This document shows positions 3,199-40,893 of a DNA stretch of 64,000 nucleotides, one piece after another; within the stretch, counting starts at the first letter, position 1; the number at the start of each line of letters is the position of its first letter. The DNA comes from Deltaproteobacteria bacterium (GTDB lineage: Bacteria; Desulfobacterota; Desulfobacteria; Desulfobacterales; Desulfatibacillaceae), in NCBI GenBank assembly GCA_016235345.1, contig JACRLG010000007.1, positions 124,001 through 188,000 on the forward strand, read 5' to 3'. The notes beneath the pieces are model-generated. The model saw nothing but the letters and a program-made list of their open reading frames with translations, made no database searches and was not told the DNA's origin. Made by a program: the position numbers and the translations under genes.

Positions 3199-4020
3199 AT
3201 GAAAATCTGTTATTACGGCGTCAGGGGTTCGATTCCCACACCGGGCAGGGAAACCATCCGTTACGGAGGGAACACGCCCTGCGTGGCGGTTCGGTGCGAC
3301 GGGGAGCTTTTCATCCTGGACGCCGGAACCGGCCTTAGGGTGCTTGGTGAGGAACTCATGGAAGGGCCTTTCGGAAGGGGCGGGGGCAGGGCGACCCTTC
3401 TGGTCACCCACACCCACTGGGACCACATCCAGGGCTTTCCCTTTTTCAGGCCGGCCTACGTTCCCGGCAACTCCTTCCAGATAGCGGGGATGCACCAGAT
3501 CAACAAGGGCCTGGAAACCGCCATGCATCACCAGCAGCAGTACCAGAACTTTCCGGTGCTTTTGAACCAGATGCCGGCCAGAATCGTTTTCAACGCCCTT
3601 TCCGAGGACGCCGGGCTTAGCCTGGGCGACACCACCATCTCCACCACCGAGCTTAACCACCCCGGCGGGGCCTGCGCCTACCGGGTTGAATACAAGGGCC
3701 ACGCGGTTGTCTACGCCACCGACACCGAGCACTACGCCTCCATCGACCTAAGGCTTTTAAACCTCTGCCTGGGGGCGGACCTCCTGATTTACGACACCAC
3801 ATATTCCCCTGCCGAGTACGCCGAGCACCGGGGCTGGGGCCACTCCACCTACGCGGAGGGAGTCAGGCTCGCAAGGGCCGCCGGGGTGAAGGCCCTTCAC
3901 ATGTTTCATCACCACCCGTCCCACACCGATGAAATGATGGAGGCCATGCTGGTTGAGGCCAGGGAGCTTTTCCCGAACATACACCTTGCACGTGAGGGAT
4001 GGGAGCTTGATTTGGGATAG
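3199..4020 (+). CDS. MBL-fold metal-dependent hydrolase (PhnP/RNase Z-like)
   Basis: A 273-residue cytoplasmic metallo-beta-lactamase-fold protein. The start has GGAGG 7 bases upstream. The early glycines RGSIPTPG and YGGNTPC and the metal motif HTHWDH (about residue 72) are typical of the Lactamase_B_2 / RNase Z / PhnP branch. A later Asp (ATDTEH) and the HHHPSHTDEMM stretch complete the dinuclear site. These families cleave phosphodiesters, but the substrate is not evident from sequence or neighbours. The flexible arm that RNase Z uses to bind tRNA is not apparent, so a PhnP-like or uncharacterised phosphodiesterase is more likely than tRNA processing. It precedes the beta-barrel gene by 49 bases and may share its transcript. 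Confidence 0.85.
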   Translation: MKICYYGVRGSIPTPGRETIRYGGNTPCVAVRCDGELFILDAGTGLRVLGEELMEGPFGRGGGRATLLVTHTHWDHIQGFPFFRPAYVPGNSFQIAGMHQINKGLETAMHHQQQYQNFPVLLNQMPARIVFNALSEDAGLSLGDTTISTTELNHPGGACAYRVEYKGHAVVYATDTEHYASIDLRLLNLCLGADLLIYDTTYSPAEYAEHRGWGHSTYAEGVRLARAAGVKALHMFHHHPSHTDEMMEAMLVEARELFPNIHLAREGWELDLG

Positions 4021-4069
4021 ACGATTCAGATCGGGCTTATGTGACGGCCCCATAATAAAGGAACCCGGA

Positions 4070-5173
4070 ATGACCCAGGCGAAGTTTTCCTCTCTCAAAA
4101 AGCACGGATTGACGGCTGCGGCCTGCTTTCTGTGCATGTGCATTTTTACGCAAAAGAATCTTTGGGCCTGAGCTTGCGACACCCCTGCCTCTCCGGTCGG
4201 AGAGTCGGCGTCTTCGGTGGAAGCGACCCGCTCGGAACGGGACCGCGACTTATGGCGGGAAATGCGCGGCATCCAGGAGGATGCGGGCCAGCCCGGCGAG
4301 CGCAACAGGGTTTTTACCGGCTCCCTTAGGGTCGGCCTGCAATACGACTCCAACGTCGGGCTGTTCCCGGACAACGAGGCTTTTATCGAGCCCCAAGACC
4401 TCAAAAGCACAGGGGAGGACGAGGCGGGCGTCATTCAGGCCCATGCCGGGTTCCAGCCCGAAACAAAGGGGGCGCTTGGGTTTCGAGGCGACTATTACCT
4501 TTATACCGACTTTCACAAGGATTTGAACGACTACAACATCTTAGACCAGATGGTCACCCTGGAGCCGCTTTTCCGGGTGGGCAAAACCCGGATTTCGGTT
4601 CCAGTAAGCTACAGTTACGTGATGGAGGACTACGCCAGGGAGTTGTCCGGGTTTTACGCCAAGCCCGCCGTCACCGTGGGGCTGGGCAAAAGTCACATGG
4701 CCCGGTTTTACGGAACGTATTCGGATGTCTCCTACGCCAGGGACGATTCAGATATTCTCCAGGAAGACCAGAGCGCCACGTCGTACGGCGGCGGCGCGGC
4801 TTATATCTTTTCCTTCCGGTCTAACGCGGCCTTTCTGAAACTGGACGGCGGTTTTCGGGCCAACGAGGCCAAAGGGGACAACTGGGATTACGATTCCCGG
4901 ATGCTGGCGCTCTCGCTGCGGGTTCCCGTGGTTGAAAACCTCGTTTTTTATGGTTCAACGAGCCTGGATTTGAGGGATTTTTCAAACGTGCATTCCACGT
5001 ACGATAAAAAGCGCGACGACACCCGCGTAACGGCCTATGCCGACCTGAACTACGAGCTGAAAAAGCGTTACGACCTCTTTGCCAGTTACACGCTTATTCA
5101 TTCCGATTCGAATCTTCCTGCCTACGACTATGACCGCCACGTTGTGACCGTGGGGGTCGGGGTGCATTTTTAG
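4070..5173 (+). CDS. Outer-membrane beta-barrel protein interrupted by an in-frame UGA
   Basis: The ATG at 4070 has an AAGGA site 7 bases upstream and encodes a clear Sec signal peptide (KKHGLTAAACFLCMCIF, ending NLWA). The codon at 4169-4171 is TGA. The same frame then stays open for 334 codons to TAG at 5173. The downstream part is an all-beta protein: alternating strands, many aromatic residues (YDSNVGLF, YYLYTDFHKD, YDLFASYTLIHSD) and a terminal aromatic (VGVGVHF), as in outer-membrane barrels. The internal GTG at 4217 would give a barrel with no export signal and a poor ribosome site, so the 4070 start is the sensible gene. A CTCTCC-GGTC-GGAGAG hairpin lies 23 bases after the UGA. Either the gene is a recent nonsense mutant, the base is an assembly error, or the UGA is recoded. 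Barrel function is unknown. Confidence 0.7.
4189..4204 (+). promoter_or_regulatory. SECIS-like hairpin downstream of an in-frame UGA
   Basis: A 6-bp stem CTCTCC/GGAGAG closes a GGTC apical loop (4195-4198). The loop begins 23 bases after the UGA at 4169-4171. The E. coli fdhF SECIS also presents GGUC in its apical loop, about 18 bases after its UGA. The bulged U below the loop is not obvious here. The structure is seen; the role is speculative. Confidence 0.35.
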
Positions 5174-39703: not shown

Positions 39704-40893
39704 TACGATCTGTAGTCGGCGTTTATGCGTACATAGTCAAAGGTGAGGTCGCAGGTGTAAACCAGGGATTTTCCTGGTCCCATGTTGAGGTTCACCGTGA
39801 TGTCGAATTCGTCCTTTTTCATTACGGCGGTTGCGGCCTTCTCGGCTTCCTCGCCGCACCACAGGCCGTTTTTCACCAGTTGGGCCTCGTCGAAGCTGAC
39901 GTCCATCCGGTCAGGGTCAAGGGGCACACCGGCCCGCCCGGCTGCGGCCACTATCCGGCCCCAGTTGGCGTCAGCCCCGAAAACGGCGGTTTTCACGAGC
40001 TGGGAATGGGCGATGGTGTCGGCCACCTTGCGGGCCGCCTCGTCGGATTCCGCCCCGACAACCTTCACGGCAAAGAGTTTGGTGGCCCCTTCGCCGTCTC
40101 CCGCCATCATTTTGGCAAGGGCCAGGGTCACCTGGTTCACGGCTTCCTGGAACTCGTCGACGCATTCGGAAACATCAATTCCCGAAACGCCGTTGGCGAG
40201 AAGCAGCACAGTGTCGTTGGTGGAGGTGTCGCCATCCACCGTGATGCAGTTGAAGGACTGGTCAATGGCCTTTTTCAGAACGTCCTGGAGCTGCGCCTGG
40301 GAGGCCTTGATGTCAGTCATTACAAAGCACAGCATGGTGGCCATGTCGGGCCTTATCATGCCCGCGCCCTTGGCCACGCCGGTCACGGTGAATTCCCCGC
40401 CTTTAACCTTTACCCTGCGCGCAGCTGTTTTCGGGGCCTTGTCCGTGGTCATGATGGCCCTGGAAAAGGCGTCAAGGCCCATAGGATCAAGATTTTTGAC
40501 AAGACCCGGAAAGGCCTCGCCCACTTTTTCGACGGGCAGGGCCTTTCCGATTACTCCGGTTGACGCCACCATCACCTGTGTTTCGGGGATGTGAAGCGCA
40601 ACGGAAGCAAGGCGCACGGTTTGGAGCGCGGCCCTCATGCCTTCCTCACCCGCAGAACAGTTGGCGCAGCCGGAATTGGCCACTATGGCCCGGCAGACGC
40701 CGCTTTTAAGGTGCAACTGATCCAGCACCACAGGAGCGGCTTTCACGAGGTTTCTGGTGAAAACCCCGGCCACGGCGGCCTCGGTTTCGGAGAAGATCAG
40801 CCCCAGGTCATCCGCCCCTGTCTTCTTGAGGCCCGCCGCCACCGATGCGGCCTTGAAACCGGGACAGGCAAGTTCAATATCTGTATGGCTCAT
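39703..40893 (-). CDS. argJ: Bifunctional glutamate N-acetyltransferase / ornithine acetyltransferase
   Basis: A 396-residue ArgJ that transfers acetyl from N-acetylornithine to glutamate in arginine synthesis; many members also use acetyl-CoA. The autoproteolytic site Ala-Thr is in GAGMIRPDMATMLCF near residue 190, where self-cleavage creates the alpha and beta chains and frees the nucleophile threonine. TVDGDTSTNDTVLLLANG and the C-terminal RINADYRS are family signatures. No other arg gene is adjacent. Flanked by palindromic elements on both sides (39578 and 40935). Confidence 0.96.
   Translation of the reverse strand: MSHTDIELACPGFKAASVAAGLKKTGADDLGLIFSETEAAVAGVFTRNLVKAAPVVLDQLHLKSGVCRAIVANSGCANCSAGEEGMRAALQTVRLASVALHIPETQVMVASTGVIGKALPVEKVGEAFPGLVKNLDPMGLDAFSRAIMTTDKAPKTAARRVKVKGGEFTVTGVAKGAGMIRPDMATMLCFVMTDIKASQAQLQDVLKKAIDQSFNCITVDGDTSTNDTVLLLANGVSGIDVSECVDEFQEAVNQVTLALAKMMAGDGEGATKLFAVKVVGAESDEAARKVADTIAHSQLVKTAVFGADANWGRIVAAAGRAGVPLDPDRMDVSFDEAQLVKNGLWCGEEAEKAATAVMKKDEFDITVNLNMGPGKSLVYTCDLTFDYVRINADYRS

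Follow-up and report, generated by a model that had tools for sequence, protein, structure and literature searches.

Does a UGA codon that separates the signal peptide of a predicted outer-membrane protein from its β-barrel terminate translation, or does it encode selenocysteine (Sec)? This question is raised by the locus at positions 4070-5173 (+ strand) of the window, the 64,000-nucleotide stretch of DNA analysed in this study. The initial annotation had proposed Sec insertion aided by a SECIS hairpin, and had retained a nonsense mutation or base error as the simplest explanation. Comparison with homologous genes now indicates that the UGA at 4169-4171 is very probably recoded to Sec: the proposal is supported by the conservation of the codon, its exchange for Cys, paired changes in the hairpin stem and the presence of the Sec machinery.

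The gene (4070-5173) starts 7 bases downstream of a Shine-Dalgarno-like AAGGA, read directly at 4058-4062, and encodes 367 residues including Sec34; its readthrough frame aligns end to end with 15 homologues. A Sec-type signal peptide of 33 codons, ending in FTQKNLWA (4070-4168), is recognized from the sequence and is found in the same architecture in all 17 UGA-type genes. It is followed by the TGA (4169-4171), by 333 sense codons, one fewer than the 334 counted earlier, and by a TAG stop at 5171-5173; the ribosome site, the signal peptide and the single TGA were confirmed. The TGC codon of Cys36 (4175-4177), the second residue of a UxC motif, is invariant in 16/16 rows of alignment A2 and 8/8 rows of alignment A6. 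Next come the hairpin (4189-4204), a linker (residues 46-81, 4205-4312) and the barrel (residues 82-366, 4313-5167). Read with the standard code, the locus yields a bare signal peptide and a barrel ORF that starts at GTG 4217 and has no signal peptide. Upstream, the window holds a DUF3417/carbohydrate phosphorylase gene (431-2980, - strand, 849 aa) and, just before the selenoprotein gene, a gene for an RNase Z-like protein of metallo-beta-lactamase fold (3199-4020, + strand), which ends 49 bases before ATG 4070.

Cleavage of the signal peptide, read by eye from the A-x-A-like ends of the homologous signal peptides, would occur just before Sec or one to two residues before it, so that the UGA is predicted to specify a residue at or next to the mature N-terminus. 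Bacterial lipoproteins are marked at this place by a lipobox, L-[AS]-[GA]-C. By eye, most UGA-type proteins have no Leu at position -3 from Sec and the LWA-U of the window protein is borderline; a lipoprotein reading was provisionally set aside by this inspection. Eleven in-frame TGAs lie between open frames in the window, and only the one at 4169 combines a UxC/CxU-type motif with a model-like hairpin, as judged by eye. Another, at 40561 (+ strand), lies between open frames of 303 and 253 codons and has a model-like hairpin of -9.0 kcal/mol; it shows no obvious Cys-type motif and may be a shadow frame.

All short homologues whose N-terminus is readable (17/17, in 16 genomes) have TGA at the same codon. 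These genes, counted as distinct, belong to search families f1, f60 and f70, and the UGA-type homologues share about 26-34% identity with the window protein. Of the 17 genes, 15 have UGC as their motif; the window gene has UAC, and one copy of locus L048 has UPC. In L048, genome G288 supplies two genes in tandem (286-1212 and 1300-2199, - strand), one UPC and one UGC, both with the TGA and a GGU hairpin. The internal stop is not random, since it is always TGA (17/17), yet the genes' own final stops are mostly TAA (13), with TAG in 3 and TGA in 1.

This set was assembled from several searches. The first gave one other match in the window's own family, L002 of genome G007 (34% identity), with the TGA in the same place. 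The alignment of these two proteins, searched against 389 genomes of the order, had matches at 1e-8 in 52 genomes, some short and others longer, the latter with N-terminal repeats and without a TGA in the matched part; TGA followed the signal peptide in 13/13 short loci whose N-terminus was read. Family f60, searched in 36 genomes, gave 15 matches, 14 of them with one TGA inside, the fifteenth being a contig-edge fragment that lacks the N-terminus. In a phylum-wide sample of 395 genomes, 45 had matches, and only the genes of G112 and G000 contained the TGA. Scanning contigs for close relatives with the window protein as query found none. With alignment A3 as query, the same scan yielded 13 loci, 12 of them with the TGA, in metagenome-assembled genomes named Desulfobacteraceae, Desulfococcaceae, Desulfococcus, Desulfobacterales, Deltaproteobacteria and, in one case, Smithella; these loci repeat several of the 17 genes. 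Viral contigs gave 49 pattern matches, with no relative among them.

Two homologues carry a sense codon where the others have UGA, and in both it encodes Cys. The Smithella gene (L119/L130) reads DE-CASC-SV in place of the UGA motif, and L131, a gene from a relative, reads DD-CSAC-SAASRSDS. In alignment A6 (MAFFT) the first Cys of CASC/CSAC is placed in the column of Sec and the second in that of Cys36, and both columns hold Cys or Sec in 8/8 rows. According to the initial annotation, Cys in orthologues would support Sec and any other residue a mutation; UGA or Cys, and no other residue, was found at this position among the homologues. Among 99 genomes around the Smithella genome, matches at 1e-25 occurred only in the Smithella and L131 genomes.

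A tree of 33 rows unites the UGA and Cys genes in a single clade (100/100). The 15 longer homologues, whose barrel domain is homologous to that of the window family and whose N-terminal repeats look TPR-like by eye, form a separate clade (100/100); they have no in-frame TGA within the matches and mostly an open frame of about 400-700 aa. The tree includes Smithella as sole Cys form, L131 having been found later. Because the Smithella gene nests among the genes with UGA (unstarred local supports of 85/89 and 89/85), replacement of Sec by Cys is the likely direction.

The hairpin CTCTCC-GGTC-GGAGAG (4189-4204, loop at 4195-4198) has a stem that begins at the 18th base after the UGA and a gap of 23 bases between UGA and loop. 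The initial annotation was correct as to its 6-bp stem, its GGTC loop and a spacing within the bacterial SECIS range. In excerpts of a 2026 review (PMC13188914), the bSECIS model is given as a loop of 3-9 nt with a G in its first two positions, a stem of 4-16 bp, a spacing of 16-37 nt and an energy of -7.5 kcal/mol or better, and the window hairpin agrees with it (4 nt, 6 bp, 23 nt and -8.2 kcal/mol). Considered alone it is weak evidence, because the 52-nt stretch folds no better than its shuffles (z +0.66; 151/200 at least as good) and a model-conforming hairpin of -7.5 kcal/mol or better follows 98/1658 TGA triplets of the window (5.9%); one with a GGT loop follows 7/1658. Taken together with a TGA kept in 17/17 genes and with covariation of the stem, it goes far beyond chance.

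Over the codons for Ser-Pro/Gln-Val-Gly-Lys the relatives have CTTCCCC-GGT-GGGGAAG or a changed version of it, with a GGU loop in 15/17 genes and GGC in 2 (L002 and L053). Covariation was measured on 15 distinct sequences, leaving out L057, identical to L054, and the window, whose hairpin is shifted by one base in its pairing relative to the other genes. In this set 94.3% of cells are paired, two-sided changes occur in 4/7 pairs, and covariation scores 0.346 versus 0.219 for shuffles, with 0/500 as high, a count that is not a probability because the sequences are related. Paired cells and cells with two-sided changes also exceed all 500 shuffles, and two of the five measures are weaker, namely pairs with two-sided changes, reached by 14/500 shuffles, and further pair types, reached by 161/500. 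When the partner strand is slid by 1 to 3 bases, every pair measure drops. Synonymous codons are nearly frozen in the stem (CCG 10/10, GGG 14/14, TCC 13/15).

In shape and spacing, a hairpin that suits the bSECIS model is present in all 17 genes. The isolated hairpin is weaker than the energy limit in 5/17 (L060, L048_1450, L049, L053 and L056; -5.1 to -7.3 kcal/mol). The homologous hairpin of L002 is 44 nt away from the UGA, beyond the 16-37 nt range, and only non-homologous GC-rich hairpins fit the model. An upstream hairpin of the f60 genes, CTCCG-TCA-CGGAG, was considered as SECIS and dropped, the adjoining GGU-loop hairpin being the one common to the window. At the place of the hairpin, the Cys-type genes keep a remnant of the stem without GGU, TCCCTCATTGGA in Smithella and TTCCCTGCTGGGAA in L131. 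Since this stretch changes once Sec is lost, the SPVGK part of the linker may be conserved for the RNA rather than for the protein.

The initial annotation had also pointed to selA, selB, selC and selD, and all four are present in the window's own genome: selB (360.6 bits), selA (587.5 bits), selD (342.8 bits) and a tRNA-Sec with anticodon TCA (UCA). The selD gene (L123, G000:C7:113791-114720), about 14 kb upstream on the same contig, has one in-frame TGA of its own, and SelD is therefore probably a selenoprotein itself. Among 17 further genomes searched, which include Smithella and the L118 genome, identical to G288 in its matches, selB exceeded the curated cut-off in 14. No selB above the cut-off was found in three UGA genomes (G282, G304 and G317), all draft assemblies, which counts against the Sec reading. 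The Rfam model SECIS_1 (RF00031) had no match in the window's genome; it had none in 14 control genomes either, and is thus uninformative.

Three other explanations of the UGA have to be weighed against these data. Mutation or sequencing error is the usual cause of a lone TGA in a draft genome, and the hairpin alone would be unremarkable in an ordinary barrel gene. Error in one genome is ruled out here because the same TGA is found in 16 genomes; moreover, the frames on both flanks are intact, the stem covaries and the codon is replaced by Cys, so that the explanation first thought simplest is not borne out and must be considered exceedingly improbable. The UGA could also be a true stop after a short signal-peptide ORF that controls the barrel ORF through termination followed by re-initiation, for which the GTG at 4217, 16 codons downstream, would be available. 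However, the second ORF would then lack the signal peptide that a barrel needs, the stop is never TAA or TAG, both Cys homologues join the two parts in one frame, and Cys36, directly after the UGA, is invariant. We find this regulatory reading equally hard to credit.

Readthrough of UGA by near-cognate decoding does occur, and the codon might be translated as tryptophan, or be passed by leaky readthrough, instead of specifying Sec. Against this stand the full Sec machinery, a bSECIS-type hairpin that covaries and the residue present in the two sense-codon homologues, which is Cys and never Trp; decoding of this kind appears very improbable. Sec insertion is thus the reading retained here. SelB and tRNA-Sec would decode the UGA at 4169-4171 with the aid of the hairpin 18-33 bases downstream, and a single protein would be made that comprises the signal peptide, Sec-Ala-Cys, a flexible linker and a 14-stranded outer-membrane barrel.

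The nature of the barrel is indicated by Pfam, with DUF2860, BBP2_2 and OMP_b-brl above their cut-offs, and by AlphaFold2 models of the window protein (14 strands, pLDDT 69, pTM 0.69) and of an f60 member (12 strands, pLDDT 77, pTM 0.76). The difference in strand number is explained by a stretch of about 31 residues that is absent from f60 in alignment A2 and supplies two strands. The Sec tail has a pLDDT below 50 in both models; in that of the window protein this covers residues 23-55, so that the linker starts at low confidence before a predicted helix at residues 54-71. Among solved structures, CymA comes closest to the window model (Z 24.1 and rmsd 3.2 over 281 residues), followed by OmpG (Z 20.1 and rmsd 3.7 over 257 residues); for the f60 model many barrels are bunched at Z 16-19. 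A barrel with an even number of strands has its N-terminus in the periplasm, and we infer from the models that the Sec tail would lie on that side of the membrane.

The signal peptide would pass the chain through the Sec translocon and be cut just before Sec, leaving a Sec-x-Cys pair at the mature start, on the periplasmic side of the channel. This pair would most likely form a redox couple (selenolate/selenenylsulfide) at the periplasmic mouth, which might pass electrons to compounds of sulfur or selenium or act on them. A redox pair is likewise suggested by the CxxC motif of the Cys forms, and a redox role of some kind, of which gating would be one form, is on balance the favoured function of the tail. 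In one such form the tail would be a chalcogen-sensing gate, its selenenylsulfide or selenolate state deciding whether the barrel is plugged, by analogy with the tail of CymA; we regard this specific mechanism as unlikely. In the CymA-like comparison, the window model has 14 strands and its best Z to CymA, and the tail, which would be the plug, has a pLDDT below 50.

Gene neighbours give a hint of sulfur redox in f70, G282 and Smithella. Directly downstream of the UGA-type gene lie a rhodanese gene in f70 and an AhpC-type (peroxiredoxin type) gene in G282. In Smithella (L119, 4125-5840) a CoA-disulfide-reductase/rhodanese fusion ends about 20 bases before the likely ATG of the Cys-type barrel, which suggests that the two genes form one operon. 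In L127 (7686-9678), the rhodanese that adjoins the f70 UGA-type barrel resembles TsoB, a selenoprotein, and a rhodanese-related (seleno)protein, both weakly, and is followed by a cation-efflux/MauE fusion and a convergent TauE exporter. The neighbours differ between lineages and disagree with one another, and those related to sulfur redox are absent in f60, where the genes sit between Fe-alcohol dehydrogenase/SCP2/AFOR genes and thiolase/SDR genes and look monocistronic because the neighbours on either side are oppositely oriented.

Sec could also be real while the tail serves as a metal or selenium ligand, for instance in the handling of Hg, Cd or selenite, rather than as a catalytic pair or a gate. 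Binding of soft metals by UxC and CxxC pairs is known from other families. Excerpts of the review table (PMC13188914) include metal-handling selenoproteins, and the Geobacter porin ExtI is tied to selenite and tellurite reduction in the passages of PMC5877670. The only support among neighbours is the cation-efflux gene two genes downstream in one f70 locus, and the scanned genes of an f60 locus include no metal-resistance neighbours. A ligand role seems to us rather unlikely, and the redox pair is preferred.

The selenoprotein family to which the window gene belongs is apparently undescribed, within a literature coverage that is incomplete and leaves an earlier description possible. An NCBIfam scan of six proteins matched no selenoprotein model, in a release that may not cover every family of the review table; matches below the cut-offs, all weak, involved models that are not for selenoproteins, for example EpsL, TIGR03016 and TonB-siderophor. 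The same six proteins had no match to NF041027 or PF11854 (MtrB_PioB) in the NCBIfam and Pfam scans. Among the 119 selenoprotein families of Table 1 of the 2026 review (PMC13188914, available in part), other Sec barrels are listed and no UxC-tailed barrel was found; nor was one found in the available part of the new deep-Sep families (PMC12013277) or in passages of PMC9312934, PMC2398784, PMC5877670 and PMC8318568.

The earlier view that Sec at the signal-cleavage site of a barrel would be unprecedented holds only in part, since Sec barrels of other families, of the MtrB/PioB and TonB receptor types, are listed, and the position here is at, or one to two residues after, the likely cleavage site. 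The MtrB/PioB selenoprotein of GSU2204 type (NF041027) is, like the window protein, a Sec-containing outer-membrane barrel according to excerpts of reviews of 2022 and 2026. However, the window family matches no MtrB_PioB/NF041027 model and has UxC at its own likely mature N-terminus. The TonB-dependent receptor selenoprotein of FCYXU type (NF049945) likewise belongs to the Sec-bearing outer-membrane barrels, and differs by a CxxU motif and a receptor fold whose model the window family does not match; deep-Sep predicted such a receptor in Desulfosarcina (PMC12013277, Table 3, seen in excerpt). The UGC motif itself is shared with the DUF1573 protein and the UGC TlpA-like reductase in the available excerpts, whereas their domains (DUF1573 and thioredoxin-like) are distinct from the barrel of the window family.

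CymA of Klebsiella oxytoca (PDB 4V3G and 4D51), the nearest solved fold of the window model at 11% identity, is to our knowledge not a selenoprotein. The f60 model, with 12 strands, prefers other barrels, and a common fold shows no function. According to the parts available of PMC8049027, the mobile N-terminal tail of CymA, on the periplasmic side, enters and blocks the pore. Similarly, MtrB needs its N-terminal Cys, the C42A change abolishing ferric iron reduction (PMC12175506, in excerpt). The C42A defect and the movement of the CymA tail, as given in these excerpts, provide a precedent for a barrel whose tail does work.

Our work thus points to a selenoprotein family, apparently undescribed, whose Sec is carried by an exported channel protein at its mature N-terminus or next to it. 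Standard gene calling loses the UGA-type genes because its output is a 33-codon signal peptide and a barrel without signal. The family also offers an evolutionary case, in which Sec was probably replaced by CxxC while the SECIS loop decayed and part of the stem stayed. If the gate were true, the permeability of the outer membrane would answer to the redox state of sulfide, polysulfide or selenium, and the protein would be a redox-gated porin using selenocysteine. The role of selenium in the outer membrane of such bacteria also becomes testable with one gene.
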